The notes under the pieces: generated by a model | Told to the model about the DNA's origin: nothing | The model's input: the letters and a program-made list of their open reading frames with translations, nothing else | The model's database searches: none | Translations under genes and position numbers: made by a program | Shown here: positions 23,330 to 64,000 of the stretch, piece by piece | How the letters are laid out: every line of letters starts with the position of its first letter | Numbering within the stretch: position 1 is the first letter of the stretch | DNA from: Brachionus koreanus | Taxonomy: Eukaryota > Rotifera > Eurotatoria > Ploima > Brachionidae | NCBI GenBank assembly: GCA_016987375.1 | Contig: PJRA01000005.1 | Span: forward strand, 3,301,006-3,365,005 | Length of the DNA: 64,000 bases | Direction of reading: 5' to 3'

Positions 23330-24345
23330 AAAATATTCGTGACTAGTGGTGTACCACAAGGCTAACCCTGTCCTCGGTACATTGCTCTTCTCAATTTTTA
23401 TTAATAATTTGCCCAACAAACTAAAAAACAAATGTCTACTTTATGTATACAACTGCAAGATATTCTGTTTTATCGATCGATACAATCCGCATGCATCATT
23501 TAAGTTACTTCAAGATGATATTGATTCATTGATCAGATTAATGGTCTATGGATCTAAATTTTGTAAAATGCGAAATTATGAGTTTTGATCGAAATCAAGG
23601 GCTCCAAAATGATTATATTATGAATGATTTAGCCAATGGAAAAACTCATCTTGTCTCAAGATCCTGGATTCAGAAAGACTTAGGAATCTGGATTCAAAAC
23701 GATTTTAAATGGCATTCTCAAGTTTGCTCAGCAGCCTCAAAAAACAACAGAATACTCGGTCAAATTCTTCATGGTATTAAATTTCGGACAAAGATGGTCA
23801 TTAAATTACTTTATACAAGTCTTGTTAGGCCTTACTTAGAGTATGCTATTCCTGTATGGTGTCCATATCTAGAGAAAGATAAAAGAATTCTAGAGGCTGT
23901 TCAACGAAGAGCTACTCGTGCAATTTCTGGTTTCAAAGATCTTAACTACAATGATAGACTATATGCTCTAAATCTAACGAATTTAACCGAAAGGCGAATG
24001 AAAGGTGACAAATTTTTAAAGTTAAAAGAAATATTGATCACATCAAATGGCTATCTCCACTCACTTTTTCAAGCAGAAATACAAGAGGCTATCCATACAA
24101 AATTAAAAGACAAATAATCAAAAATTGTGACCAAAGATACCACTTCTTCACAAACCGTGTAGTTAATGGCTGGAATAAGTTGGGAGTGGATGCAGTTGAA
24201 GCTCAATCTAGCGATATCTTTAAAGCAAAAATAGACACAAACTTTCATTATATTTTTTGCACATAATCTGTTGTCAGATTTACGTATTTTATGCGTTGCA
24301 ATAAACCACTATACATTACTACTATACTAATAATGGTTCTTTAAA
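23330..24345 (+). mobile_element. LINE reverse-transcriptase 3' fragment, partly open
   Basis: A damaged GVPQG-like segment near 23345 is followed by LLFSIFINNLPNKL. A second frame (23548-24117, 189 residues) then carries DLGIWIQNDFKWHSQV, SLVRPYLEYAIPVWCPY and VQRRATRAISGFKDLNY, the usual connection region of CR1/Jockey-type elements. After its stop the frame shifts and continues to a tail containing FKAKIDTNF. The 3' terminus holds CATTACTACTATACTA near 24316. It is 5'-truncated and broken by frameshifts. Confidence 0.85.
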
Positions 24346-25432
24346 GTCTTGCAATTTTGTATTTTTTTAAAATTATTTAGTTAATTTTTTGAAACTGAAT
24401 CATTAAATGTTCCATATTTTTTTATAGTTTTTAATTAATTAGTTTTAATAAATTTCATTTTTCAATATATGCACCATCATGCTCTGTATTCTTAAGCCAT
24501 CTATCATTAATAAAATGATTTTCTCTCTTCAACCATTAAATAAAGATCAATTTGAAGTTGGATAATGTTTTGTTAAATCTAAAGCGATTGTCAAAGAAAG
24601 TGAGCCATTAAAAGAAAAAATCAAAAAGACAAGCTGAATGAGGCAAAAATTAGTTAAATCTAATAATATAAAATATTCTTAAAATAAAATTTTTACTTTC
24701 TTTTTAAGATCAAATCAATAAAAAAAAAATTTTTTTTTAAATTTTCTTTTTACACTTTTTTTTGAATAAAAAAAAATATTTTAATTTAATAAAGACCAAA
24801 AAAGTGTAACTATAGAGGGCGCTTCCATAATTGGAAACTTTTAACCATTGTCATTATTTTTCCATTAGATATTTTTAAGCCTTAATCTAATCCTAATCTT
24901 TGGGGCATAAAATCTAAGAATGTTTTGACATTATGATTTGATTGTGATTTTTTGGTTTATGACGCTGAATTTCCCACCAATGGAATAAAGTATTTTTAAG
25001 TAAGAAATTAAAAGGAGACAGCTGCTATTTTGCAATTTTTAAGTAAATCAATTTTTCACTCAAATTATTTATTGATATTTATAAAACCTGAATCAATTAG
25101 AAAATGTACTTATTTTAATCATGTGTTTAGCAATAAATTTACACATATATTAAACTTTAGGAACGGTAAAGCCCTCATTATGCTAATAAATTAAAATTAA
25201 AACAAATGTAAAGTTAACTTTTCATTTGAAAATAATTAAAATAAAAGATAGCATAAATATTTAGATTATACTAGGTATATACTCTCTGGACAAAGGATAT
25301 TAGATTTTTGAGAATCTGTACGAAAAAATAAATTAATCTAAAATTCGCGCACATTCATTTTTACAATTTTTTCAATTTATTTATTAAGAGAACTATTTAA
25401 GATTAGCATTATCGTCGCTAGTAAAAGTTAAA
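24346..25432. other. Intergenic upstream of Acinus copy A
   Basis: AT-rich DNA with no gene seen. The 50 bases before the ATG at 25433 do not resemble the corresponding region of copy C, so the duplication does not extend into the promoter. Confidence 0.4.
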
Positions 25433-27939
25433 ATGTCAGATGCATTGAAAGTGAAAATAAATTCGAAAATGGTTGACATAACCAGCTTGAAAGTAACCGA
25501 GCTAAAATCAGAGCTTAAAAAGAGAGGGCTTTCAACTGCAGGTGTTAAGCAAGAATTGTTTGAAAAATTAAAAAATGTATTTTTCTATTAAATTTATTTA
25601 AAAAATTATTAATTTTCTCTTTCTAGCATTTAATTAAACAAACCGAAGAGTTAAAAACAGAGCAAGAAATTGAAGAAGAACCGGAAATTTCAAGCTATAA
25701 ATCACCTCGAAAGACGAGAAGCTTGAGAAATGGTTCTGAGAATGGAATAAAGGAAATTGAATTAAAATCAGAAGAACCAGTATGTGATGATCCAAAAAAA
25801 GAATCTAACGAATTACAAATCGAAAATAAAAATGAAACAGAATCGAATAAATCAGATAATTCGGCAAAACAATTAGTTGAAGATGAAACTAAAAAAGATC
25901 AGAATACAGTAAATACGCTGGAAATAAGTGAAAAAAGTAAAGATGATGCTGGGATTGTAAAACATGATACAAGTGAAAATACCAGCGATGATAAAAATGA
26001 TATAAATGAAAGTAATATGAACATTGATAATGAGCTAACAAATACAGAAGAAAAAGTTGAAGATGATAATGAAAAAAAAGAGGTAAGTGAAGCAAAAGAA
26101 GAAGAAAACAATAATGATTCAATAACTGGGGAAAATACAGAAATCATAGAGGGAAAGAATGATCTCAAAGAGAACAATGAAGAAGATAAAGAAAAAACAA
26201 TTGACGAAAACAAATGCATTGAGATAAAGGATGATAAAAAAGAAGTAGAAAAAGAAAATGAAAAAAATGGTTCTAATCGTAAACGAAAATGGTTGTCAAA
26301 TGAAGCAAGCTCGTTTCTTTCATCAAAAAAACCTTTAACTATTTCCAGTGATACACTAAAAAACTATTTAGAAACAAATCCAATGGAAATTTTAGAAAAA
26401 TCACCAATTGAAGACTTAAAAAAAAGCATATGTCGTACTGTAATAATGGTAAATAATAAAATATTAAAATTTTGAAAAATTTCTAAATTTAATTTTCTAA
26501 TAAAGGAACCAGAAAATGAACTTGATTTTGAAGAGAACGTACAAGAGTCACCATCTAAAGCAACCGAGTCAAAAAAAGAAGAAATGAAAAATGAAGCTGA
26601 AAAAAGTGATGATGAAAAAAGTGATGATGAAAAAACAACAAATGTTTTACATTTATCCAATTTGACACGGCCATTCACTTTGAATCAACTAAAAGAATTG
26701 TTGGGAAAATATGGCAAAATAAATGAGCAACATTTTTGGATAAATTCTGTGAAATCTCACTGTTTTGTTGAATATGAGACAAAAGAAGATGCCAAAATGG
26801 CTCGTAAAAATTTACACAACATTAAATGGCCATCGTCAAATCCAAAAAATCTTGTCTGTGAATATTCCACATTGGATGAATTAGTGTTTAACATGAATGG
26901 TGCAGTGAATGTGTCACAAAAGCACAAAGAATTGGAAGACAAAGAAAATAAAGATAATAGTAATTCAACTAGTGAGTTGAAAAATAAAGAAAAAGAGTCA
27001 AAGAACAAAAGTGAAAAAATACGAGAATGGGACTTGCCTAAATTGAGACAACGATCTAGATCACGCGATAGAAGACAAATAGAAAAAGTTGAAGAGATTA
27101 AAAAAGAGAAAAAAGAACAACCAGCAAGCAAGACATTTGATGAACTATTTAGAAAAACAACTACAACACCATATCTCTATTGGTTGCCATTGACAGAAGA
27201 ACAATATGCTGAAAGACAGCGTGAAAATGAGAGAAGACAAATTGAGCGAGAGAAACGAGCCGAAGAAAGAAGACAAAGAGAAGAGGCTGAAAAAATTCAA
27301 AGAGAAAAAGAAAGACAAGAACGTTTGGAAAGAGAGGAAGAAGAACGAAAAGCCAAAGAAGAACAAAGAGCCAAGGAAAATGAGAAAATTGCTAAAGAAA
27401 ATGATCAAGTGGAAGATAAAAAAGAGACTTTTGAACAAGTAAATGAAAAAGACAAAGATCGAGAGAGAAAAGAAAGTGTAAACGAGAAAAGCAGAGAAAA
27501 GAGTAGAGATAGAATTAGAGAGAAAAGTATTGAGAATAGAAAAGAAAAGAGTAGAGAGAAAAGTAGAGATAGAGATCGTATTAGAGAAAGAGATCAAAGA
27601 AGAACTGATGTTGGTGCAAGATATAGATATGATCGATATGAACCGTACAGGCGACGAACACCACCTAGATATGACTCTGATAGATACAGAGGTCGTGATT
27701 ATTATGCTGATCGATATCGTGATTATCCACGTGGCGGAGCTCAGAGACGATCAAGATCAAGACGTAGAAATGCTCGATCAAGAACCAGATCATCTTCCAA
27801 ATCGTCCAGATCATCCAGTCGATCATCAAGCTCTAGTTCTAGTTCATCTAGATCAAGTTCATCTTCAAGATCATCCAGATCTTCGTCCTCTTCTAGATCA
27901 AGATCACCAGACAAAAACGGAAAAAGGCAGAAAAAATAA
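25433..27939 (+). CDS. ACIN1: Acinus (ACIN1) copy A, full length
   Basis: Exons 25433-25576, 25627-26448 and 26506-27939 encode 799 residues. Residues 12-47 form a SAP domain (DNA/RNA-binding helices; ELKSELKKRGLST). A long acidic Glu/Asp/Lys-rich region of low complexity follows, then a basic RKRKWLS patch near residue 273. An RRM spans about 368-448 (NVLHLSNLTRPFT). The RNPS1-SAP18-binding motif lies near 531-550 (FDELFRKTTTTPYLYWLPLT), followed by a charged coiled coil and an RS/SR-repeat tail ending SPDKNGKRQKK. This is the Acinus architecture; Acinus with RNPS1 and SAP18 forms the ASAP complex on exon junctions and regulates splicing. The copy differs from B-D at several residues in the last exon (for example QVNEKDKDRERK). 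It lies 400 bp upstream of MIF in the same orientation. Confidence 0.93.
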
Positions 27940-28343: not shown

Positions 28344-28766
28344 ATGCCAATTCTCCAAATAAACACCAATATTCCAAAAGAAAAGGTAACTGAAGAATAC
28401 AATCTTAATTTGTGCGAAACATTAGCAAAAACTTTAAATAAACCGGTTGGATATTGTGCTGTCCACATATTAGCTGGTAACTTTTGTTTAATTTTTTGGA
28501 AAAAAAATTATATTATTTTATTCTTAATAAAAGATCAAATAATGTCATTTGGCGGAACATTTGAACCTTGTGCACATGTTTCATTGATATCAATTGGTCG
28601 TCTTGGTGTTGAAGAAAACAAAAAGCACAGCAAAGTAATTATGGATGAATTAGAAAAGCTTGGTATTCCATCAAACAGAGTGTACATATTTTTTCAAGAT
28701 GCCCATCCATTTGAATTAGGCTACAACAAAACAACATTTGCAGAAATTTTGGCTGAAAACAATTGA
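28344..28766 (+). CDS. MIF: Macrophage migration inhibitory factor (MIF) family protein
   Basis: Two exons, 28344-28476 and 28534-28766, give 121 residues (human 115). The 57-bp intron has no stop and is a multiple of three, so an unspliced reading also stays open; splicing restores the family sequence across A-DQIMSFGG. Pro2, the tautomerase catalytic base, follows the initiator Met, and a Lys in NKPVGY corresponds to Lys33. Strand and helix order (INTNI, CAVHIL, FGG, LISIGRLG, NRVYIFF) matches MIF trimers. The human CxxC (CALC) is CAHV here, so the oxidoreductase motif is missing. MIF proteins are keto-enol tautomerases and, in vertebrates, cytokines; the role here is unknown. Its first 22 codons resemble the start of the chimeric Acinus copy B. 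Confidence 0.93.
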   Translation: MPILQINTNIPKEKVTEEYNLNLCETLAKTLNKPVGYCAVHILAGNFCLIFWKKNYIILFLIKDQIMSFGGTFEPCAHVSLISIGRLGVEENKKHSKVIMDELEKLGIPSNRVYIFFQDAHPFELGYNKTTFAEILAENN

Positions 28767-31899: not shown

Positions 31900-32799
31900 T
31901 TTTTTTTTAATTTGATTAAAATTTTAAAATATTTATACAAAATTTTTTATGTAAATGTTGATAAAAAAAAATTTCAAATTTATTCTGAATTTTATTATGA
32001 ACCAAACAATAAATAAATTAAAATTTGACTATCGGTGTAAGCACAATTTTGGGCATGCTTTTCAACAAGAAAACCTTGTACCAAAGATCTAATTCGAAAT
32101 TTTTAAAGGCCGCCAGAGATAAAATTTTCTCTAAATTTTAACTTTCTCTTATACTCAATTATTTAGTCTATCGAATTTTTGAAAATTTTTAAAATTTATT
32201 TTTTTACAAAGACGGTAGCAAACATTTGTATTATTAATAAGATTTCTTTTTTAACAAGCAGGAATAAGAAATGAATAGCCTTTGGCAAAAAAATTTGAAG
32301 AAATGATAATGAGAATTTACTACCAATTTTCGTCTATATAAAAATATTTTTTATCTAACTAAGAGGAGAAATCTTTCTTAGTCTTTATTTTAAAAAAATA
32401 TTTAATTTATATTTTATAGCCAAAAATTTCAAAATAAAATTAAACTCCATTAAATGAAGATAATTAATTGAAATTGGATTAAATAATCCCTAAAATATTT
32501 GTCTAAAAAAATAAATCTTAACCAATATTCATATTAATATTAATTACTGGTTTTATGGTCAATGAGGTTTTGATTTAAAAAAATAAAGAAATGATTATGA
32601 TTTGAAAAAAAAAAACTCAAATCATAAATGCCATTAAAAAATAATATAAACTAGATTTTTTTATTTTAAACATAAATTTATTAAACATTAAAATTTTATA
32701 ATTTTTATTAATTTTTACAGTAATGTTTTTAAAATATATATAATTGAAACAGATAAAGATATTTAAAAAAAAATTTTATTATTAGACATTAAATTTTTT
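31900..32799. other. Intergenic between chimera B and ACSF3
   Basis: AT-rich with no gene seen. The part just left of ACSF3 would hold its promoter, and 32640-32799 the 3' end of copy B. Confidence 0.4.
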
Positions 32800-34254
32800 T
32801 TAATTTTTCTTTTGCCTTTTTCCGTTTTTGTCTGGTGATCTTGATCTAGAAGAGGACGAAGATCTGGATGATCTTGAAGATGAACTTGATCTAGATGAAC
32901 TAGAACTAGAGCTTGATGATCGACTGGATGATCTGGACGATTTGGATGATGATCTGGTTCTTGATCGAGCGTTTCTACGTCTTGATCTTGATCGTCTCTG
33001 AGCTCCACCACGTGGATAATCACGATATCGATCAGCATAATAATCACGACCTCTGTATCTATCAGAGTCGTATCTAGGTGGTGTTCGTCGCCTGTACGGT
33101 TCATATCGATCATATCTATACCTTGCACCAACTTCAGTTCTTCTTTGATCTCTTTCTCTAATACGATCTCTATCTCTACTTTTCTCTCTACTCTTTTCTT
33201 TTCTATTCTCAATACTTTTCTCTCTAATTCTATCTCTACTCTTTTCTCTGATTTTCTCGTTTACACTTTCTTTTCTCTCTGGATCTCTGTCTTTTTCATT
33301 CACACGTTCAAAAGTCTCTTTTTTATCTTCCACTTGATCATTTTCTTTAGCAATTTTCTCATTTTCCTTGGCTCTTTCTTCTTCTTTGGCTTTTCGTTCT
33401 TCTTCCTCTCTTTCCAAACATTCTTGTCTTTCTTTTTCTCTTTGAATTTTTTCAGCCTCTTCTCTTTGTCTTCTTTCCTCGGCTCGTTTCTCTCGCTCAA
33501 TTTGTCTTCTCTCATTTTCACGCTGTCTTTCAGCATATTGTTCTTCTGTCAATGGCAACCAATAGAGATATGGTGTTGTAGTTGTTTTTCTAAATAGTTC
33601 ATCAAATGTCTTGCTTGCTGGTTGTTCTTTTTTCTCTTTTTTAATCTCTTCAACTTTTTCTATTTGTCTTCTATCGCGTGATCTAGATCGTTGTCTCAAT
33701 TTAGGCAAGTCCCATTCTCGTATTTTTTCACTTTTGTTCTTTGACTCTTTTTCTTTATTTTTCAACTCACTAGTTGAATTACTATTATCTTTATTTTCTT
33801 TGTCTTCCAATTCTTTGTGCTTTTGTGACACATTCACTGCACCATTCATGTTAAACACTAATTCATCCAATGTGGAATATTCACAGACAAGATTTTTTGG
33901 ATTCGACGATGGCCATTTAATGTTGTGTAAATTTTTACGAGCCATTTTGGCATCTTCTTTTGTCTCATATTCAACAAAACAGTGAGATTTCACAGAATTT
34001 ATCCAAAAATGTTGCTCATTTATTTTGCCATATTTTCCCAACAATTCTTTTAGTTGATTCAAAGTGAATGGCCGTGTCAAATTGGATAAATGTAAAACAT
34101 TTGTTGTTTTTTCATCATCACTTTTTTCAGCTTCATTTTTCATTTCTTCTTTTTTTGACTCGGTTGCTTTAGATGGTGACTCTTGTACGCTAGCATTTAA
34201 TTCTTCTTTCACTTTATCTATTTGTATATTAGTATTTATTTCGAGGATTGGCAT
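32800..34254 (-). CDS. Chimeric gene: MIF-like N-terminus fused to the Acinus last exon (copy B)
   Basis: A single uninterrupted frame of 484 residues. The first 22 residues start MPILEINTNI and match the N-terminus of MIF at 28344 in about 14 of 22 positions, including Met1-Pro2. From about 34189 downstream the sequence becomes the Acinus terminal exon (VQESPSKATES onward). It contains the RRM, the RNPS1-SAP18-binding motif, the coiled coil and the RS tail, ending RQKKN. The SAP domain and the acidic exon 2 are absent. The junction lies inside a coding stretch, not at a splice site, so the fusion is at DNA level and in frame. The MIF part is too short to form a tautomerase fold; it may mainly have supplied a promoter and start codon. 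Product: probably an ASAP-complex protein without SAP-mediated nucleic-acid binding. Expression is unknown. Confidence 0.88.
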   Translation of the reverse strand: MPILEINTNIQIDKVKEELNASVQESPSKATESKKEEMKNEAEKSDDEKTTNVLHLSNLTRPFTLNQLKELLGKYGKINEQHFWINSVKSHCFVEYETKEDAKMARKNLHNIKWPSSNPKNLVCEYSTLDELVFNMNGAVNVSQKHKELEDKENKDNSNSTSELKNKEKESKNKSEKIREWDLPKLRQRSRSRDRRQIEKVEEIKKEKKEQPASKTFDELFRKTTTTPYLYWLPLTEEQYAERQRENERRQIEREKRAEERRQREEAEKIQREKERQECLEREEEERKAKEEERAKENEKIAKENDQVEDKKETFERVNEKDRDPERKESVNEKIREKSRDRIREKSIENRKEKSREKSRDRDRIRERDQRRTEVGARYRYDRYEPYRRRTPPRYDSDRYRGRDYYADRYRDYPRGGAQRRSRSRRRNARSRTRSSSKSSRSSSRSSSSSSSSSRSSSSSRSSRSSSSSRSRSPDKNGKRQKKN

Positions 34255-36040
34255 TTTATTTTTTAATAAAATTGCGCAAATTTTCTTCCTAATTTAATAA
34301 ATTCTTTCTCTTATATTTAAATTTTTTGAACTTATTTTAAAATTTAATAAAAGCAATTTAAAATTTTTTTTCATTATTTTTTTAATTATTTCAAATTCAA
34401 AATTAAATCTTCTTTTGTATATTCATGATTTTTATTCATTGCTTAATTTTTTTCATAGTTTAAAATCACTCTATCTTTTTTGTCTTTAAATAAAGTAAAT
34501 CTCAATTATTTTTGCATGATACTCTTTGAATATTTTAAAAAAATGTTAGTGCCCAGGAATGCTTGTCTTTAACTTTACCGTAAGAGAAAATAAAAAAACC
34601 ATTTACATTTCGAAAAAAAGAAAAATTTTTATATTTTTTTTTTGCTTCAAATTTAAAATTATACAATTTAATTTTCAAAAGCTCTTAGCCTGATTTGTTG
34701 TCTCTTTTGAAAAATAACACAAAAGAGTCAAAATAGGGTAAAATGAAAGTTTTTAAAAGCCGCACCTTAAATTGACATATAGAAGAGTCTTTGATTAAGC
34801 AAAATAAATTATTTAGTCTAAATATTAAAAACAATACAATTTATTAAAAATCAAAATTTTCTTCCCAGTCAAAAAAGCTTTAGTGAATTTTTAAAGATTC
34901 TTAAAGGTTTCGGGACGCTTTTTCTTTATAACTTCTTTAAAGAAAAATCTCTAAAATTTCATTTTAAATTCGATGTTATTTAATAATAAACTAAAAAGTA
35001 GTGTCAAAATCATAATTTTTTTTTTTAAAAGATAAGAATCAAATTTTCACATTTTTTATAGAAAAAATAATAAATGTTATACAATTTTAAGAAATCAATT
35101 TTCATGAAAAGCATGCTTGGTTTTGAACTTTTACCTGTTGATTCTCTTGATACTCAAGTTTTTATAAACATTAGATGTCATCATTAGAGTGAAAATAAAA
35201 TCTCTTAGCTATAAGCAGGATAATATGGTCACTAAAAAATTAATAGTTAACATCAATAGCTTGACAACTCAAAAGTAATTTTATCTAATCGAAAAATATA
35301 AATATGAGAAATAAGTAATCATTTTTGAGAAGACAAAATTTATGAAAAATTTTAATGTGTAAATTAAAACTCTAAAATATTTAGATTTTTATCTTAAAAG
35401 ATAAAATTTTGTTGAATATAGAATGTTTTCAGTGTGAATGTAATAGCTAGCTATATTTTCTTAATTTTGAACTTTTAAAGCGAAGTCATGATTATTAAAT
35501 TATAGTCTTGTAAATGCAATAGCCAGTTAGTCAATAATTAAACTGCACTGTAAGCGAACATTTTAGACAAAAAATTAATACTGGTATACTGGTATTCGAT
35601 TTCATCAATGACAAAGCCTAGTCAAAACTTAAAGTATGTAATAGTTATTGTATATTGTATACCTTCTCAATTAAAGTATGCTCGAAAGAATCCAAATACA
35701 AATAGTAGCAAAAAATTAAGGTGCAGAAATTTAAAATGAAATCGACTATTAATATTTTTTCATTTCTTTTGATTTTAACTTTTCTTCAATAAAAAATTTA
35801 TATAATTTTTTTTCTTATTTTATTATATAATTATTTAGTTTGGATCAGAAAAATTATGCAAAAAAAAACATCCTTAAGATTGTACATTTCAGTGTTAAGT
35901 TCAATTATAGAACATAAATATCTAAGAAAAAAGTACTCATGATGAAAAAAGAGGAATATTAAGCACTTTTCAATAATAAAAGATAATGTTAACAATCCTA
36001 AGTAAGCAATGTAACATAAAAATTTCTTCAATCAAAGAAA
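34255..36040. other. Intergenic, no gene seen
   Basis: AT-rich spacer upstream of copy B. Nothing coding recognised; 35831-36031 has a hydrophobic open frame on the minus strand that looks random. Confidence 0.4.
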
Positions 36041-36178
36041 TTAATCAACATCATCCAATGTTTGGTCATCTGGGTTGAGTAGTACGCTCTCATTAGATTT
36101 TGTAGCTTCGCTTGGTTCCATTTTTAGTTTTTTTAAGTTGTAGTCAATTTTATTTTTTGGGTCTAGTCCATAGTGATA
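36041..36178 (-). other. Orphan C-terminal coding-like segment
   Basis: The minus strand reads a coherent 45-residue frame, beginning near 36178 with YHYGLDPKNKIDYNLKKL and ending DDQTLDDVD before a TAA at 36041-36043. It is bounded upstream by a stop. Composition is unlike random AT-rich DNA. It could be the end of a decayed transposase or of a lost gene; I do not recognise it. Confidence 0.35.
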
Positions 36179-36450: not shown

Positions 36451-37158
36451 GGGAGTGTATCAATAAATAGTGAATAATTAAATTGAAATAATTTTATACT
36501 GAGTTATTCAATAATAAAATTAAACAGTGATGCTTTAAATAGTGCCTTTAAATAGTATTTTAGTGACTTTTAGTGGCATAAAATTTATGAGGTAAATTTA
36601 ATTATAAGTAAAAAATAAATTTTTAAAATAATAATTTTTTCTTAAATCAATAATTAATAGGCCGAATGTAAAAAGCATCTGACTTAAGCTAAATTAGTTG
36701 AACAATTCAAATTAGAGCAAAATGAAACGCAAAACCTTTGATCTCAATTAATGTCGTGAGATGTTATTTATGTAGCGCGATAAACGCCAAGTTTTGAAAG
36801 ACAATGCAATAAAAGCTGCTGTCCTTTCTTATGAAAATGAAAACGGTCTCGTATATTTAGAAAAAATAGCGAGTATTTTAGATAGTTTTTCATTAAACAA
36901 ATAATTTTTTTTAAGTCAAACATAAATATGATTCAGAGATTTTTTTAAATAAATAATAAATTTATCTGTGTATTCATAAAATGTCAATAAAAATCACATT
37001 TTTTTATTACATATTTTTTTTGTCAACTATTTAATTATCACTATTTAAAGGACCACTATTTATTTCTTACTATATAATTACTCACTATTGAAAAAGATTA
37101 TTTAATTCCACTATTTATTTTCAGTATTGAAAGCATCACTATTTAATTAACTGCTCCC
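36451..37158. mobile_element. DNA transposon with inverted termini and 8-bp target duplication
   Basis: The ends GGGAGTGTATCAATAAATAG (36451) and ...TTAATTAACTGCTCCC (37158) are imperfect inverted repeats. The element is flanked by identical 8-bp copies AAAATAGC at 36443-36450 and 37159-37166. The motif AATAGTG occurs twice near the left end, and its complement CACTATT five times near the right end (37039-37144). The interior (36720-36895) contains a degenerate frame starting MKRKTFDLN and later IKAAVLSYENENGLVYLEKI, perhaps the DNA-binding head of a transposase. Duplications of 8 bp occur in hAT, Merlin and P superfamilies; which one applies is undetermined. Confidence 0.85.
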
Positions 37159-37788
37159 AAAATAGCTCTGTTGGCAGATGACCTATGTATTTGGTAATCC
37201 AAAGCTAGTAAGAGAGAAATTGAAGTGATTCTTCAAAAGATAGTAAACAGAATCATTGAGTACTGTAAAAAATGGGGATTTAAAATCAACGAAAATAAAA
37301 CCTACTTTACAACATTTACCAGATCGGGGCTCTGGGAAAACTACGAGAAATTCCTTTTGAGCCAAATCCAGCATTCGTTGGTATAAAATAAGACCCGAAA
37401 AGAAGATATCGTCGTTCAAAATCAACAGAATTCTTTATATGTCACTCATAAGATCATTATTCGACTATTGTTTTGTAATTTTTCAGTCAAGTACTTAGAA
37501 AATAAAATTTGAATTTCAAAAATTGCAAAATCGGATCTTAAGAATATCATCAAATATTTCCCATTTAAAACAAGTATTAAAACAATTGACGAGAGCTGAG
37601 AATTGATATTATTGATGACAGGGCTGCTGCTCTTTTTTCAAAATTTATTACTTTCAAGAAAAACCATGAATTATTAGTCAAAGAGATCCAGAATTTTATG
37701 CTTCAAAGCTCCAACAGAAACAAACTAGAGTACAAAACTCTCTTGGAACAGGAATTATATTTTTTATCTTTACTTACGGGAAAAATCA
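37159..37788 (+). mobile_element. LINE RT relic, split by the DNA element at 36451-37158
   Basis: Translation gives LLADDLCIW near 37168 (catalytic ADD box), then EIEVILQKIVNRIIEYCKKW and GFKINENKTYFTTF. Further decayed RT connection sequence follows to about 37788. Just left of the DNA element, 36429-36450 reads FSDFKIA in the frame that would lead directly into ALLADDL if the insertion and one duplicate were absent. This supports insertion into the LINE. Confidence 0.8.
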
Positions 37789-39164: not shown

Positions 39165-41684
39165 TTATTTTTTCTGCCTTTTTCCGTTTTTGTCTGGTGA
39201 TCTTGATCTAGAAGAGGACGAAGATCTGGATGATCTTGAAGATGAACTTGATCTAGATGAACTAGAACTAGAGCTTGATGATCGACTGGATGATCTGGAC
39301 GATTTGGATGATGATCTGGTTCTTGATCGAGCGTTTCTACGTCTTGATCTTGATCGTCTCTGAGCTCCACCACGTGGATAATCACGATATCGATCAGCAT
39401 AATAATCACGACCTCTGTATCTATCAGAGTCGTATCTAGGTGGTGTTCGTCGCCTGTACGGTTCATATCGATCATATCTATACCTTGCACCAACTTCAGT
39501 TCTTCTTTGATCTCTTTCTCTAATACGATCTCTATCTCTACTTTTCTCTCTACTCTTTTCTTTTCTATTCTCAATACTTTTCTCTCTAATTCTATCTCTA
39601 CTCTTTTCTCTGATTTTCTCGTTTACACTTTCTTTTCTCTCTGGATCTCTGTCTTTTTCATTCACACGTTCAAAAGTCTCTTTTTTATCTTCCACTTGAT
39701 CATTTTCTTTAGCAATTTTCTCATTTTCCTTGGCTCTTTCTTCTTCTTTGGCTTTTCGTTCTTCTTCCTCTCTTTCCAAACATTCTTGTCTTTCTTTTTC
39801 TCTTTGAATTTTTTCAGCCTCTTCTCTTTGTCTTCTTTCCTCGGCTCGTTTCTCTCGCTCAATTTGTCTTCTCTCATTTTCACGCTGTCTTTCAGCATAT
39901 TGTTCTTCTGTCAATGGCAACCAATAGAGATATGGTGTTGTAGTTGTTTTTCTAAATAGTTCATCAAATGTCTTGCTTGCTGGTTGTTCTTTTTTCTCTT
40001 TTTTAATCTCTTCAACTTTTTCTATTTGTCTTCTATCGCGTGATCTAGATCGTTGTCTCAATTTAGGCAAGTCCCATTCTCGTATTTTTTCACTTTTGTT
40101 CTTTGACTCTTTTTCTTTATTTTTCAACTCACTAGTTGAATTACTATTATCTTTATTTTCTTTGTCTTCCAATTCTTTGTGCTTTTGTGACACATTCACT
40201 GCACCATTCATGTTAAACACTAATTCATCCAATGTGGAATATTCACAGACAAGATTTTTTGGATTCGACGATGGCCATTTAATGTTGTGTAAATTTTTAC
40301 GAGCCATTTTGGCATCTTCTTTTGTCTCATATTCAACAAAACAGTGAGATTTCACAGAATTTATCCAAAAATGTTGCTCATTTATTTTGCCATATTTTCC
40401 CAACAATTCTTTTAGTTGATTCAAAGTGAATGGCCGTGTCAAATTGGATAAATGTAAAACATTTGTTGTTTTTTCATCATCACTTTTTTCATCATCACTT
40501 TTTTCAGCTTCATTTTTCATTTCTTCTTTTTTTGACTCGGTTGCTTTAGATGGTGACTCTTGTACGTTCTCTTCAAAATCAAGTTCATTTTCTGGTTCCT
40601 TTATTAGAAAATTAAATTTAGAAATTTTTCAAAATTTTAATATTTTATTATTTACCATTATTACAGTACGACATATGCTTTTTTTTAAGTCTTCAATTGG
40701 TGATTTTTCTAAAATTTCCATTGGATTTGTTTCTAAATAGTTTTTTAGTGTATCACTGGAAATAGTTAAAGGTTTTTTTGATGAAAGAAACGAGCTTGCT
40801 TCATTTGACAACCATTTTCGTTTACGATTAGAACCATTTTTTTCATTTTCTTTTTCTACTTCTTTTTTATCATCCTTTATCTCAATGCATTTGTTTTCGT
40901 CAATTGTTTTTTCTTTATCTTCTTCTTTGTTCTCTTTCAGATCATTCTTTCCCTCTATGATTTCTGTATTTTCCCCAGTTATTGAATCATTATTGTTTTC
41001 TTCTTCTTTTGCTTCACTTACCTCTTTTTTTTCAATATCATCTTCATTTTTTTCTTCTGTATTTGTTAGCTCATTATCAATGTTCATATTACTTTCATTT
41101 ATATCATTTTTATCATCGCTGGTATTTTCACTTGTATCATGTTTTACAATTTCAGCATCGTCTTTGTTATTTCCACTTATTTCCAGCGTATTTACTGTAT
41201 TCTGATCTTTTTTAGTTTCATCTTCAACTAATTGTTTTGCCGAATTATCTGATTTATTCGATTCTGTTTCATTTTTATTTTCGATTTGTAATTCGTTAGA
41301 TTCTTTTTTTGGATCATCACATACTGGTTCTTCTGATTTTAATTCAATTTCCTTTGTTTCATTATCAGAACCATTTTTCAAGCTTCTTGTCTTTCGGGGT
41401 GATTTTTGAGGTGATTTATAGCTTGAAATTTCCGGCTCTTCTTCAATTTCTTGCTCTGTTTGTAACTCTTCGGTTTGTTTAATTAAATGCTAGAAAAAAG
41501 AAATTATAATTTTTTTTATAACAATAAAATAGAATATTACATTTTTTAATTTTTCGAATAATTCTTGCTTGATACCTGCAGTTGAGAGCCCTCTCTTTTT
41601 AAGCTCTGATTTTAGTTCGGTTACCTTCAAGCTGGTTATGTCGACCATTTTCGAATTTATTTTCACTTTCAATGCATCTGACAT
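39165..41684 (-). CDS. ACIN1: Acinus (ACIN1) copy C, full length
   Basis: Exons 41684-41541, 41489-40656 and 40598-39165 give 803 residues with the same domain order as copy A: SAP, acidic region, RRM, RNPS1-SAP18-binding motif, coiled coil, RS tail. Exon 2 has four extra residues (repeat of KSPQ/KSPR near the start) and some substitutions. Intron 2 (57 bp) appears identical to that of copy A, whereas intron 1 and the sequence upstream of the ATG are unrelated. Exon 1 differs from copy A at several third-codon positions only, plus Val/Ile. In the last exon it agrees with copy B at the ECLERE and RRTEVG sites but with copy A in having the duplicated SDDEK unit. Probably functional. Confidence 0.92.
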
Positions 41685-43681: not shown

Positions 43682-45966
43682 TTAGCGCGAAGATCTACTC
43701 CTTGATCTGGATGAACTGGACGATCTTGAAGATGAACTTGATCTAGATGAACTAGAACTAGAGCTTGATGATCGACTGGATGATCTGGACGATTTGGATG
43801 ATGATCTGGTTCTTGATCGAGCGTTTCTACGTCTTGATCTTGATCGTCTCTGAGCTCCACCACGTGGATAATCACGATATCGATCAGCATAATAATCACG
43901 ACCTCTGTATCTATCAGAGTCGTATCTAGGTGGTGTTCGTCGCCTGTACGGTTCATATCGATCATATCTATACCTTGCACCAACATCAGTTCTTCTTTGA
44001 TCTCTTTCTCTAATACGATCTCTATCTCTACTTTTCTCTCTACTCTTTTCTTTTCTATTCTCAATACTTTTCTCTCTAATTCTATCTCTACTCTTTTCTC
44101 TGATTTTCTCGTTTACACTTTCTTTTCTCTCTGGATCTCTGTCTTTTTCATTCACACGTTCAAAAGTCTCTTTTTTATCTTCCACTTGATCATTTTCTTT
44201 AGCAATTTTCTCATTTTCCTTGGCTCTTTCTTCTTCTTTGGCTTTTCGTTCTTCTTCTTCTCTTTCCAAACGTTCTTGTCTTTCTTTTTCTCTTTGAATT
44301 TTTTCAGCCTCTTCTCTTTGTCTTCTTTCCTCGGCTCGTTTCTCTCGCTCAATTTGTCTTCTCTCATTTTCACGCTGTCTTTCAGCATATTGTTCTTCTG
44401 TCAATGGCAACCAATAGAGATATGGTGTTGTAGTTGTTTTTCTAAATAGTTCATCAAATGTCTTGCTTGCTGGTTGTTCTTTTTTCTCTTTTTTAATCTC
44501 TTCAACTTTTTCTATTTGTCTTCTATCGCGTGATCTAGATCGTTGTCTCAATTTAGGCAAGTCCCATTCTCGTATTTTTTCACTTTTGTTCTTTGACTCT
44601 TTTTCTTTATTTTTCAACTCACTAGTTGAATTACTATTATCTTTATTTTCTTTGTCTTCCAATTCTTTGTGCTTTTGTGACACATTCACTGCACCATTCA
44701 TGTTAAACACTAATTCATCCAATGTGGAATATTCACAGACAAGATTTTTTGGATTCGACGATGGCCATTTAATGTTGTGTAAATTTTTACGAGCCATTTT
44801 GGCATCTTCTTTTGTCTCATATTCAACAAAACAGTGAGATTTCACAGAATTTATCCAAAAATGTTGCTCATTTATTTTGCCATATTTTCCCAACAATTCT
44901 TTTAGTTGATTCAAAGTGAATGGCCGTGTCAAATTGGATAAATGTAAAACATTTGTTGTTTTTTCATCATCACTTTTTTCAGCTTCATTTTTCATTTCTT
45001 CTTTTTTTGACTCGGTTGCTTTAGATGGTGACTCTTGTACGTTCTCTTCAAAATCAAGTTCATTTTCCCAATCCTAAATTTATAATTATTAATTTACATT
45101 AAATTACTTAAGAAAGTTTACAAATAATTACTTTTGTTTTTAAATCATTTTCACTATTTACAGTTTTTTCCTCATTTATCTTTGTTTTCGACTCGCCCAG
45201 TTCACCGCTTTCCTGAAAAATTGGGTTATCTAAATTATGTAACGGGTTTTTAGGTAAATAACTCTTTAAAGTTTCACTTGAAATAGTTAGAGTTGTTTTT
45301 TTATTGACTAGAAAGTCTTCACCTAACCATTTTCGTTTTCTCACAGCTTTAGCCGCATTCGCTTCACTTGATTCAGATTTCTCTTTATCTTCATGTATTT
45401 CTTCATCCTTTGAATTTGTGTGCCAGCGTGGTTTGGGTGATTTTGATCTGCTAAAACGATTTCTTTCTCCTGAGAGAGGAACTTCTTTAATTAATGACTC
45501 TGACCTTTCGCTACTTGTTTCAGGATCATTTGCAATTTCTTTATTCTCTTCATTTAGATTATTAAGATCTTTTGTGTCATCTAACTGAATTACATTATTT
45601 TTCTCATCTTCTAATTCTCTTGGTATTTCAAAAAGCTTTGTATCTCCATTTACACTGGATTCATTCAATTCAACTGAGTTTTCCTTTCCAGAACAGCTTA
45701 CTTCAGATGTTGAATTATCATCAATTATTTTTGATGTTTTTTCATCTTGCTGACTCAAAAACTTAAAAAAAGATTTTTAAAATTCATTTTTAATTTTAAA
45801 GATATTTAAGAAAAATATTTACAGTTCTGAGTTTTTGTTGAAGTTCTTGCTTATTTCCAGATGTTGAAAGTCCTCTTTTTCTTAATTCATTTCTTAATTG
45901 GACAACTTTTAATTCATTAATGTCAACATCTTTCGAATTTATGTTTATCGAAATCAGATCTGACAT
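43682..45966 (-). CDS. ACIN1: Acinus (ACIN1) copy D, divergent 5' half and altered C-terminus
   Basis: Exons 45966-45823, 45761-45132 and 45073-43682 encode 721 residues. The SAP exon (residues 1-48, with RNELRKRGLST) is clearly homologous to that of A and C but differs at many residues. Exon 2 is shorter and mostly different, keeping a KRKWLGEDF patch and LTISSETLKSYL near its end. In contrast, the last exon from the VQESPSK region is almost identical in nucleotides to those of A, B and C. The tail stops earlier, SSSSRSRSRSSR, lacking SPDKNGKRQKK. Exon 1 has the same length (144 nt) and phase as in A and C. A plausible reading is an old paralogue whose last exon was overwritten by gene conversion. 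Confidence 0.9.
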
Positions 45967-59200: not shown

Positions 59201-62200
59201 AGAACAGCAAAAGAATGTCTCATTGAAAACCGACATCAAGAATTTTCAGCATAACTATCGGGAAATTATTGAACTCAAAGAGAGAATAGAGGATTTGTCT
59301 CGAGAAAACCAGGTATTGACAGAAGCAAATCAAAAATTGGTCAATAGTGCATTTAGTTTGGATCGAGAAAGAGATTTTAGAGAGCGTGAGAGATCTCTAA
59401 AAATCCAAATAGCTCAATTGGAGGCTACCTTGAAATCTGACGTTGGTGAAAAGGGTTCAATTTTAGACAAATTGAATTCAGAAAGAGATCAATATGATAA
59501 GCTTAATACGGAAATGAGAGAGATGCAAATTAAATATTATGAAATGAAACAAAAATATGATGAAATGAATGAAAAAATGCAGTTTTTAAGCAAAGAGAGT
59601 AACATTGATTTTAGCGAAATTGAAGAAGCGCTAATTTTGGTCAAGGAAAGGAAAGCAAACAAGAATTCAGATGAATTTCTTGGCATGGTTGATTCGGAAA
59701 AAGTGAAGGCTTATCAACGAAAAATTGTTGATTTGGAATGTACTCTTGCCGAAACTGTCAGTGAACTGGATAAATCCAGGCACTTGTTGGTCACACAAGT
59801 TAAGATAAACGAAAACTATAAAAAAGAAATGAAGTTAATAGAGAACAAGATGGAAGAGAACAAAGCTGAATTTGATACCAAAATGAATGAAGCTGCTCAA
59901 ATGCTGGATATTCGAGCAGCCAGAATAAAGGTAAGCAGTTATAAATTGATATTAATCATGATGTTAATTCATGTTTGAAAACAAAAAGATTAAACTCCAA
60001 AATTGAAAAAAATAAAAGTTTTTTTTTTTATAAACAAAATGCAAATTTTTAAAGAGACAGGTTTTTTTGGGAAAAGAACAAAAAAAATTAACTTTTACAA
60101 AAAATTATTAATATTAAATACATTTTTAATTTAAAAATGACATTAAATAGGCCTGAATTGAATAATTCAGAATAAGTTTTTTTATAAAATCAAAATCATA
60201 AAATCTAAAATTGACCCAAAAATACTTAAACCTGTAAATTTTCTAATTTTTTAAAAATCGATTTCCCTTAGATGTTAATTGTAGTTTAATAGCTTTATCT
60301 TAGAAAAATAGTACTTTGAAAAAGCCATTGACTACTCTATAGATGGCTAAAAAGCTAAATAATATAATACATCAGTCACTATGACTTGATAAAAGGAAAA
60401 AAATAAAGATCCTTCATGTTGCACTATGTTGCAATATTTTTTTAAATATACTTTTTTGTCCAAGACGACTTGCTGTCAAGTGACATAACATGGTCAATTA
60501 TTAAGCGATTTTCAGTCTGTAAAGTCAAGAACAAATAAATTTAAATTTAATAAAAAAAATTAGAGAGTTCGATACCAAAGATTGAAGATCATGCACATTG
60601 AAGTTTATATTTAATCAAATTAATTAGTTCATTCTCTCTGAAAAATTAACACTGATTTTTTTTCAAATCTTTTTTGAGTATAAAATATATAGCAGAAGCA
60701 TATTTTCAAAGTAAATATTCAAAATTAAATTAAATTTATTATGTATTCAAATATCTGGAAAATTTTTCGGGTTTATAGGGAATAGAGGTTTTAGCATTTT
60801 GGGCTTTTAAGAAGGGTTTATATGTTATAATAACTTATAATTAAAAATATGTCTCTTCATTAAATTTTTCAATTAAAGCAAATTTCTAAAAATAAAAAAA
60901 ATTATTTTTAGTGAATATTTTTATATGATTTTAAATTGTAATAATTTTTTATTTTTAAATTAATTAAAAAAAAAATATTCATCAAGAAATTCAATAAAAA
61001 ATGAAATATATTTTTGTTTTTGATAAATTATAAATAAAGCTTTTTACACATGAAAAAAATAATTCAAATATAAAAAAGATTAATTTATTGAATAAATATT
61101 TTAATATTTAATGTTATTTTCTAAAAACAAAGGGCATCTTACTTGAAAAATTAAAAAAAAATTTGTGATTCAATTAATTTATTTTTAAGAAACTTGAACG
61201 TCAATTGAGAGATGTTGCTTATGGAACTAAGCAAGTTCGCATTCAAAAAGACCAAGAAGAAGCTCCCATTGACGGAAAACGTAGAGACAGCTACAGTTTT
61301 GTTGGTGCACCAGAGCCACACATGCTTGACAGCTACATAACTTCAAATCTAGAACGCGGACAGAACATATTCGAAATACATTTAACTAAACTCATTTTAA
61401 CACCTGAGGCTCTTAAGTTAATGCAAGAAAATGATCCATCTACATTCTGCACTATTGAATTCTATGAGCATGAAATCCAGACTACGCCTGTTATCAAAGG
61501 ACAAAAGGCAGAATACAATTTTACATCTCAATATGTAATAAGAGTGGATGATTTTTTCCTTCACTATTTGCAAAAAAAGACTTCTACTATAGAGTTGCAT
61601 CAAGCTATTGGCTCTGATTACGAGACTCGAGCCGCTTGCCAGTTGTCTTTCCGAGATTTGATAGACCGTGAGAAGACCAGAATTCACGGTCAAGCTGAAC
61701 TGATTTCAGTAGTGGCCAAAAACACTGGCATTACTCTTGGCGTACTTGAGTACTGGGCTCGTTTAATAGTTCCTGTTGATCAAGCATTCCGTTTGTATAA
61801 AGAAAGAGTAAAAGCTTTGGGATACATTGCTTCAAACAATCAAGGTTTAAGCGATATAAACATTAGAAAAAAATCTGACCAAAATATGAATGAACTAAGT
61901 ATAAGCATATTACGTTGTTCTAAACTAAATTCACTAAACAGCAGTGAACAACCATCGCCCTATTGTGTATACAAATTCTATGATTTCGAGGACCAGGACA
62001 CCGAAATTATAAAAAGCTCAAATAACCCTGAATTCAACTCTCACAAAAGCTTTCCCATTCAAATGGACATTGATTTGGATAAATACTTGAAAAATTCGTG
62101 CCTAGAAATTTATGTTTTCGATGATAATCAAGACAGCAATGATCCGTCTTATTTAGGCATGGCTAAGATTGAACTAATTCGTTTATCACATGACCAAGAA

Positions 62201-62999
62201 ATAAAGGGAACTTATGAGCTAAGACGAGAAGATGGATCAAGTAATGGTAGCATAGATGTGACCATGTACTGGCAGTATACCTATCTGCCTCCATCAGCAT
62301 CTACATTTAGCGCATCAGGCTCCTCAGCAGCTAAAAAACAAAACGAAAAACAGAACATCCTAGAAAGAGCAGTTCAAATGAGCTTTAAGAATGGAACACC
62401 TCCAGGACAGTCCCCAGTACTAAGCCAACAAGGCAGCAGAGGGGCTAGCAGACCTGCTAGTAAAGTTTCCAGTCGTGCTGCTAGTCAAAATGGCAGTCAA
62501 ATCGCTAGTCGCGTAGCCAGCCAAACTGGTAGTCAAGCTGGCAGCAAATTGGCTAGTCCTAGATCGCCAACAAGTCAAAATGGAGAAAATGAAAAAAAAC
62601 ATTCAGACACAGACTCGATCGGCAATGCAACTTTGTATCGTGTGCCAGATTCAAACAATCAAGATGAACATTTTAATGACACTTTTTTCGGAGACCAAGC
62701 TACAGATGTGACTAGACAGTATCGTGAAACATTGGAAACAAATAAAGTGTCGGACAATGATGATGAAATAGATGAAGAAATAGAAGAGAATATTGAGAAT
62801 CAGGAGAGAGAATCAGATGCAGGAGGTGATGAAGTATTAGGAACGACTATGCGACGAAATTTTAAAAATTACATTGCCACAACTAAAAGTGATGACGTAG
62901 AGGCCAGCACTTGGGATCCAAACGATACTAATCGAATTGCCAAAAATGGAGATGAAAATAATATAATTATTGAGATTAATAGTTTGAAATTTAATGAAG
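56246..62999 (+). CDS. RPGRIP1L: RPGRIP1L (MKS5/NPHP8), ciliary transition-zone scaffold, 5' 11 exons
   Basis: Exons inferred: 56246-56258, 56312-56459, 56517-56596, 56650-56747, 56796-56888, 56944-57086, 57138-57281, 57370-57414, 58967-59072, 59127-59930 and 61190-62999. All stay in phase, giving about 1161 residues before a donor at 63000; the rest lies beyond the window. The family start EDKYLNLYDENIILKKHARKQ is followed by a long coiled coil (to about residue 560, including LDIRAARIKKLERQLRD). Two C2 domains follow, the first with EHEIQTTPVIKGQKAEYNFT, the second with PYCVYKFYDFEDQDTEII. Next is a Ser/Ala/Gln-rich SRAASQ-type repeat linker and an acidic stretch. The last visible residues (IIIEINSLKFNE) begin the C-terminal RPGR-interacting C2. 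The protein organises transition-zone assembly. The tiny first and eighth exons are the least certain. Confidence 0.9.
57720..58290 (-). mobile_element. LINE 3' fragment in RPGRIP1L intron 8
   Basis: Minus-strand frames give SVRPHLEFAI near 58225, then FKRIQRRRTKIIPIL, then LNLTKLKIRCMRGDLIQLFK near 58060, and after a frame change TNRVVNVWNS near 57895. These are the C-terminal blocks of CR1-like LINE proteins (VQRRATK...RR-RGD...VWN-LP). The 1.55-kb intron is otherwise AT-rich. The element is truncated and antisense to the gene. Confidence 0.82.
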
Positions 63000-64000
63000 G
63001 TAAGTTAAAAAAAATTAATTGAAATTTAAAAGAATGAAAATTATATATTTTTATCAATTGAAAAATCTTGAGTGAGCATTTTTTCTATTATGATGGGTCA
63101 TAAAATTTTGAGTTTTTAAAAAGATTGAATATTTTTGTTTTTAGTATCTTTGTTTTTCTAAAACTTTTAGTCCTATTATATGTTTTAAACAAACAATTTC
63201 AAGGTAAATCAACAAGGCTAGTGTGAATGTCATTAATAATCGATTAACACTTCATTTATTTAATTTTATAAAAATAATTATTCACAACTATTTTTATAAA
63301 ATACTTTTTTTCTTACAATGGTTGTACTGGAGAAAAAATCTTCGCCATGTTAAAAGATTTGTATATGAGGTTAGGAGAAGTTAGTTCTTTACTGTTTATT
63401 AATTAAATAAATATAGCAACAGTCTTTTTTGATTAAAATTCTTCAAATTTATTCAAAATAGGCGCCAAGTCATTAGACATCAATTCAAAAAAATTAATTG
63501 ATTGTATATATAATTAATAAAAAAATGCAAGTTATAGGATTTTTAATTTAAAAATTAGTTTAATAGCGCAAAATTGAACTCCCAAAAAATGTTATAAAAG
63601 TAAGTCATATTCTCTTATTGAGTATATTCTATAAATTAGAATTTTAAAATTACAAAATAATCAAAATCTTTAAATTATTGAATATATTTAGATATATTTA
63701 AAAATTACGAAAAATTCTACAAGATGATGAGAATTTTTATTGTCTTGCTTTATAAAATAATATAGTTTTAGAAATAAAGAACTATATAATTAGTTGTCAA
63801 CAATCGATTTTTTTGAATTTTTATTATTTAAAAATAGAATTTTTTATACACAGTTAAATTTAATAGCATCATCATTAATCTGTTTATTCTTTAGATCAAA
63901 ATCTTTTAAAAAATACTGATGGGTCAAAATAGAATAAGGCTTTTAAGTTTATTAACATTTTAAATAAAAGATTCTCCGCATGGATAAGGTAACAAATGTA
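63000..64000. other. RPGRIP1L intron (partial), no exon recognised
   Basis: Follows the donor at 63000. I looked for the continuation of the C-terminal C2 domain and saw none, so the intron probably extends past the window. AT-rich throughout. Confidence 0.45.

Follow-up and report, generated by a model that had tools for sequence, protein, structure and literature searches.

In-frame fusion of a MIF-derived start with the Acinus last exon in the rotifer Brachionus koreanus, beside neighbouring Acinus loci with near-identical last exons

The window analysed here is a stretch of 64 kb from Brachionus koreanus, and the genome searched comprised 83 Mb in 92 contigs. On the minus strand of the window, a frame of 484 residues runs unbroken from 34254 to 32800 (stop included) and encodes an RRM, an RSB motif and an RS tail. 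Its first 20 codons (34195..34254) are derived from MIF; they are followed by a junction (34190..34194) of a few bases that fitted neither parent in the alignments and, from 34189 onwards, by a tract corresponding to the last exon of Acinus (32812..34189). The assembled sequence holds a genuine in-frame chimera, and the original prediction of such a MIF-Acinus fusion was confirmed by the open frame, its MIF-derived start and the Acinus tract.

The donors of both halves had been predicted to be neighbours of the chimera, and this was also the case. A MIF gene, the closest MIF relative of the chimera, lies on the plus strand at 28344..28766 with one short intron placed by eye at about 28477-28533; it is 85% identical to the MIF of Brachionus calyciflorus and 80% to that of B. 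plicatilis. Acinus, which acts in splicing and apoptosis and is usually present as a single copy, was modelled at three further loci: copy A on the plus strand (25433..27939; exons 25433-25576, 25627-26448 and 26506-27939, stop included) and, on the minus strand, copy B (39165..41684; exons 41684-41541, 41489-40656 and 40598-39165, stop included), whose last exon is the closest to that of the chimera, and copy C (43682..45966; exons 45966-45823, 45761-45132 and 45073-43682, stop included). These models were chosen by custom scoring from 51, 69 and 6 candidates for A, B and C, respectively, and the donor of the second intron is ambiguous. All three are full-length open frames lying within 21 kb, with a SAP domain detected in their modelled starts at 51.8-54.0 bits.

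The best Acinus relative of these loci was a B. plicatilis protein, one match named for this species being present among the matches listed. In the N-terminal part, copy C was 49% identical to this protein, compared to 26-28% for A and B, and C is on sequence grounds likely its orthologue. Copies A and B form a divergent pair, whose N-terminal parts are 27-31% identical to that of C. In their last exons, A and B were 97-98% identical to C in protein, and only one synonymous and two nonsynonymous codon changes separated B from C in 423 codons. The last exon of B. plicatilis Acinus resembles these exons, although with only 65-67% identity, and differs from the chimera in lacking a MIF start.

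Several other features were detected in the window. A 132-bp tandem repeat with 9.7 copies occupies positions 2-1284, and we presume that it perhaps encodes TPR-like repeats. A frame of 191 aa at 23542-24117 matched no Pfam family and in our estimation resembles the final part of a non-LTR retrotransposon protein, and a 614-aa frame with RPGRIP1-type C2 domains at 61178-63022 presumably belongs to what is perhaps a ciliary gene. On the 3' side of the chimera, a short repeat of about 110 bp (32101-32211) had dozens of partial genome matches of about 70-110 bp (40 of 91 candidates scored). A run of N, outside the parts described here, gives rise to mechanical open frames in several frames on both strands, which do not indicate genes.

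The MIF-derived start had been put at 22 codons. Codons 1-20 proved to be MIF-like, with 14 of 20 residues equal to those of the window MIF, but codons 21-22 were unmatched; Met1 and Pro2 were kept, as predicted. Compared codon by codon with the MIF gene, 8 of the 20 were the same, 6 differed synonymously and 6 changed the residue. The MIFs of B. calyciflorus and B. plicatilis have a comparable start, MP-LQI-TNI-KEK; the chimera retains only 20 codons, with changes, and nothing else of the fold. The DNA likeness extends about 110 bp 5' of both ATGs into non-coding DNA, where the flank of the chimera (34255..34364), its presumed 5' UTR, matches the MIF 5' flank at 71% in ATG register; aligned as one piece, 34200-34364 of the chimera and 28398-28243 of MIF were 71% identical over 167 columns.

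Mere chance is a highly improbable source of this resemblance. It is true that only 20 codons in AT-rich DNA are involved and that the upstream stretch has three weaker genome matches elsewhere, but a MIF gene is adjacent and a tblastn search of the window with MIF exon 1, composition correction off, returned the chimera with E = 2.7e-6. Furthermore, when the 115 bp upstream of the chimera and MIF were compared in ATG register the score was 43, whereas 2032 further ATGs in the window scored at most 14 when compared with the chimera and at most 10 with MIF. In an earlier control with softer end-gap penalties (n = 706), a score of at least 43 was reached against MIF by none of the sites and against the chimera by one, an untraced site scoring 55, which speaks for chance but did not recur among the 2032 ATGs.

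No complete MIF domain was found by Pfam either in the full chimeric frame or in its first 49 residues. The MIF stretch covers, we assume, no more of the tautomerase (MIF) fold than its first strand and a portion of its first helix, so that it supplies a start and no enzyme, and this piece alone is too short for folding. The MIF-type homologous start and Pro2 of the chimera are evidence of descent only. Four of the six residue changes (Q5E, K12I, E13D and T16K) fall at positions common to the three MIFs compared, those of the window, B. calyciflorus and B. plicatilis; therefore, these changes arose on the chimera side, and they are consistent with relaxed constraint.

The original prediction had considered another MIF paralogue as a possible donor. 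A genome search with PF01187 yielded three matches at two loci, namely the window MIF gene and a distant paralogue on contig C14 (start MPFLRLVTNVP), and a second intact donor was not found in this search. The 20 MIF codons of the chimera itself were not picked up by this search, so that further short fragments of MIF could have escaped it as well. The upstream DNA of the chimera had no other good match in the genome, and no credible match to MIF exon 2 was detected around or downstream of the chimera.

The Acinus part was expected to start at about 34189 and to carry an RRM and an RNPS1-SAP18 motif without a SAP domain, and each of these features was found. BLAST from 34189 matched the Acinus copies B, A and C, with a sharp boundary at this position, about 31 nt inside the modelled Acinus last exon. 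Pfam detected RRM_1 (PF00076) with 38.1 bits (cut-off 20.7) and RSB_motif (PF16294) with 56.9 bits (cut-off 27.1) in the chimera, and no SAP domain. The RRM matched that of human Acinus (6g6s, E 1.6e-28) and the RSB stretch matched 4a8x chain B ('HOOK-LIKE, ISOFORM A'; E 1.4e-6), which we take to be the Acinus chain of the ASAP complex.

At the nucleotide level, the Acinus tract of the chimera showed one mismatch to copy B in 1378 aligned bases plus one missing 15-bp unit, with no synonymous and no nonsynonymous changes over the 423 codons compared. The 15-bp unit is present twice in tandem in A and B and once in the chimera, and C likewise lacks the second unit; the C-terminus of the chimera is of the A/B type, unlike that of C.

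Four near-identical exons of 1.4 kb within 21 kb are a usual setting for misassembly, and the N run elsewhere in the window indicates that the sequence is not gap-free or is incompletely shown. A false join between a MIF fragment and an Acinus exon among these repeats is nevertheless improbable as the source of the chimera. Either the 15-bp unit or point sites distinguish its exon from those of A, B and C, and the stranded body of a second MIF duplicate, expected from a wrong join, was not found in the PF01187 search. Searching the genome with 34190-34500 gave five matches, the only full-length one being at its own place; the downstream flank of the chimera, 31930-32811, likewise had a full-length match only at its own place, and the remaining matches were short, partial and repeat-like. 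The chimeric protein had four genome matches, namely A, B, C and itself, all within the window (48 of 48 candidates scored). Neither this search nor that with 34190-34500 revealed a second copy of the junction. Among predicted proteins, the MIF start was present in none of the five matches of the junction query, made against a database apparently without the Acinus of this species, and in neither of the two inspected out of 56 matches of the full-length query, the best of which was 63% identical.

The relationship between copies A and B varied along their length. Altogether, 121 differences were counted in 2725 aligned bases, but these were unevenly spread: in windows of 100 bases, the flank and first exon (25200-25599) differed by about 12-32%, no difference was found across 26200-26799, and the final 600 coding bases differed by 0-6%, with the likeness ending at the stop codon. 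The longest identical run was of 659 bases, a length attained in none of 5000 permutations, and the modelled second intron (26449-26505) lies within the identical windows. The 5' flanks of A and B were 75.6% identical over their best 135 bp, a value similar to that between the flanks of the chimera and MIF (71%). The last exon is thus near-identical at four loci within 21 kb while the flanks have diverged, that is, a tract of identity is flanked by diverged homologous DNA, the configuration by which interlocus gene conversion is recognized. Given that this exon is only 65-67% identical to that of B. plicatilis, selection alone is unlikely to have kept the copies alike, and homogenization of the last exon among neighbouring loci by gene conversion is the most likely explanation of these sequence patterns.

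This conclusion bears on the age of the fusion. The original prediction had pointed to a dating puzzle, and the observation behind it stands, as the likeness of the MIF part to the MIF gene nearby amounts to only about 71-75% while the exon is near-identical to its relatives; to reconcile the two, however, requires homogenization of the exon, an element that had not been proposed. If the last exon has been homogenized by conversion, the near-identity between B and the chimera dates the last copying and not the fusion, so that an old fusion may carry a recently refreshed exon.

An alternative, somewhat unlikely but still live, is that the last exon of B was copied in one recent step into a decayed MIF duplicate where no Acinus exon had been before. 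A single mismatch to B and the sharp boundary inside the exon are what such an event would leave. On the other hand, the second 15-bp unit of A and B is missing from both the chimera and C, and C, a fresh exon in an old gene, indicates that copying between loci has been active in the cluster. The 3' flanks are a further point against it, since those of B and the chimera look weakly homologous in register: the score was reached by 8 of 1500 controls, which possibly include true copies. No likeness was detected in register between the 3' flanks of the chimera and A (277 of 1500 controls) or of A and B (982 of 1500), and in local alignments of the chimera 3' flank with those of MIF, A, B and C, none of the four exceeded the best of 60 shuffles.

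The arrangement of the genes is also informative regarding the origin of the chimera. Copy A and MIF lie head to tail on the plus strand, 0.4 kb apart, with Acinus just 5' of MIF, and B and the chimera are arranged likewise on the minus strand, with 4.9 kb between them. The order of A and MIF is the one that an inverted duplication of an Acinus-MIF block needs, and it was therefore counted in favour of such an origin, whereas the lack of a credible MIF exon 2 on the 3' side of the chimera counts against a simple tandem duplication. The proposed course of events would begin with an inverted duplication of the Acinus-MIF block, in the order still seen in A and MIF. The MIF sequence up to codon 20 would later have been joined to the last exon of Acinus by another rearrangement within the second block, and gene conversion would then have overwritten the exon of the chimera while the flanks diverged.

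The DNA between B and the chimera contains interspersed repeats at 34788..36048, with many partial genome matches (40 of 136 candidates scored), and a second one at 37151..37747, also with many partial matches (40 of 98 scored). Between them, an inverted repeat at 36462-37119, with arms of about 95 bp that are 76% alike around 470 bp, is perhaps a small transposable element; one of its arms overlaps a weak 29-bp tandem repeat.

Taken jointly, a 5' end from an old MIF duplicate, origin in an inverted block, an exon refreshed by conversion and a working Acinus product without SAP form the explanation that we favour, by a judgement slightly on the positive side of even and drawn from sequence comparisons. 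The principal rival, which we hold to be possible at somewhat below even probability, is that the chimera is real but dead DNA, a silent by-product of duplication and conversion whose frame is open only through recent copying of the exon. The latter is compatible with the residue changes at conserved positions of the MIF part, and with the absence of codon changes from B over 423 codons, because a freshly copied exon makes the open frame uninformative about selection on the chimera. It fits less well with the retention of MIF-type upstream DNA and of the bases around the start codon, with a fusion that is in frame and with a missing 15-bp unit whose loss preserves the frame. Dead copy and recent one-step transfer are thus the live alternatives, and an assembly error is less likely.

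In the favoured explanation, in which the product works, the MIF duplicate would provide the promoter region, the start codon and the first 20 codons, and the Acinus exon would provide the remaining 460-odd. The product of the chimera is likely, from this analysis, an Acinus lacking SAP and made from a MIF-type promoter and start codon. RNA binding and assembly with RNPS1 and SAP18 are predicted for it, and under MIF-type control it could supplement full-length Acinus or compete with it, a role also conceivable for human Acinus-S and S'. For human Acinus, a SAP domain is attributed to the long form and the S and S' forms have unique N-termini (PMC6057467), and T7-Acinus S*, a short construct with the RRM and the RS-like region, was pulled down with RNA from cells (PMC4986896). 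As SAP is attributed to the long human form, S and S' have unique N-termini and S* was recovered with RNA, the chimera may be a short Acinus under MIF-type control. The likeness to Acinus-S and S' of human ACIN1 lies, as far as those texts describe them, in the RRM and RS-like region, the unique short N-terminus and the restriction of SAP to the long form (PMC6057467, PMC4986896); the difference is that alternative splicing and/or promoters produce the human forms from a single gene, whereas here there is a separate locus with a MIF-derived start. HYDIN2 (PMC5345166), an example of lineage-specific chimeric genes that arose by incomplete duplication and fusion, is likewise a partial gene duplicate fused to other sequence, but in the chimera diverged flanks surround a donor exon that is near-identical to its parents, so that the two halves differ in apparent age.

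Literature searches returned no paper that combined MIF with Acinus and a fusion gene, rotifers with MIF, or partial duplication with chimeric genes. The fusion is a lineage-specific chimeric gene of an event type already known, to which the concerted last exon is an unusual addition. With two halves of conflicting ages, it offers a compact natural case of how conversion can mask the time at which two genes were joined. Its expression would make it an instance of a short Acinus put under the control of another gene by rearrangement and not by alternative promoters. A broader reading, which we consider doubtful, is that several loci share the last exon as a cassette on which conversion imposes uniformity, each locus contributing a promoter and N-terminus, in one case those of MIF. 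If this were true, separate genes would yield long and SAP-less Acinus forms under different control, as other animals achieve by alternative promoters, and conversion would keep their common splicing module identical.
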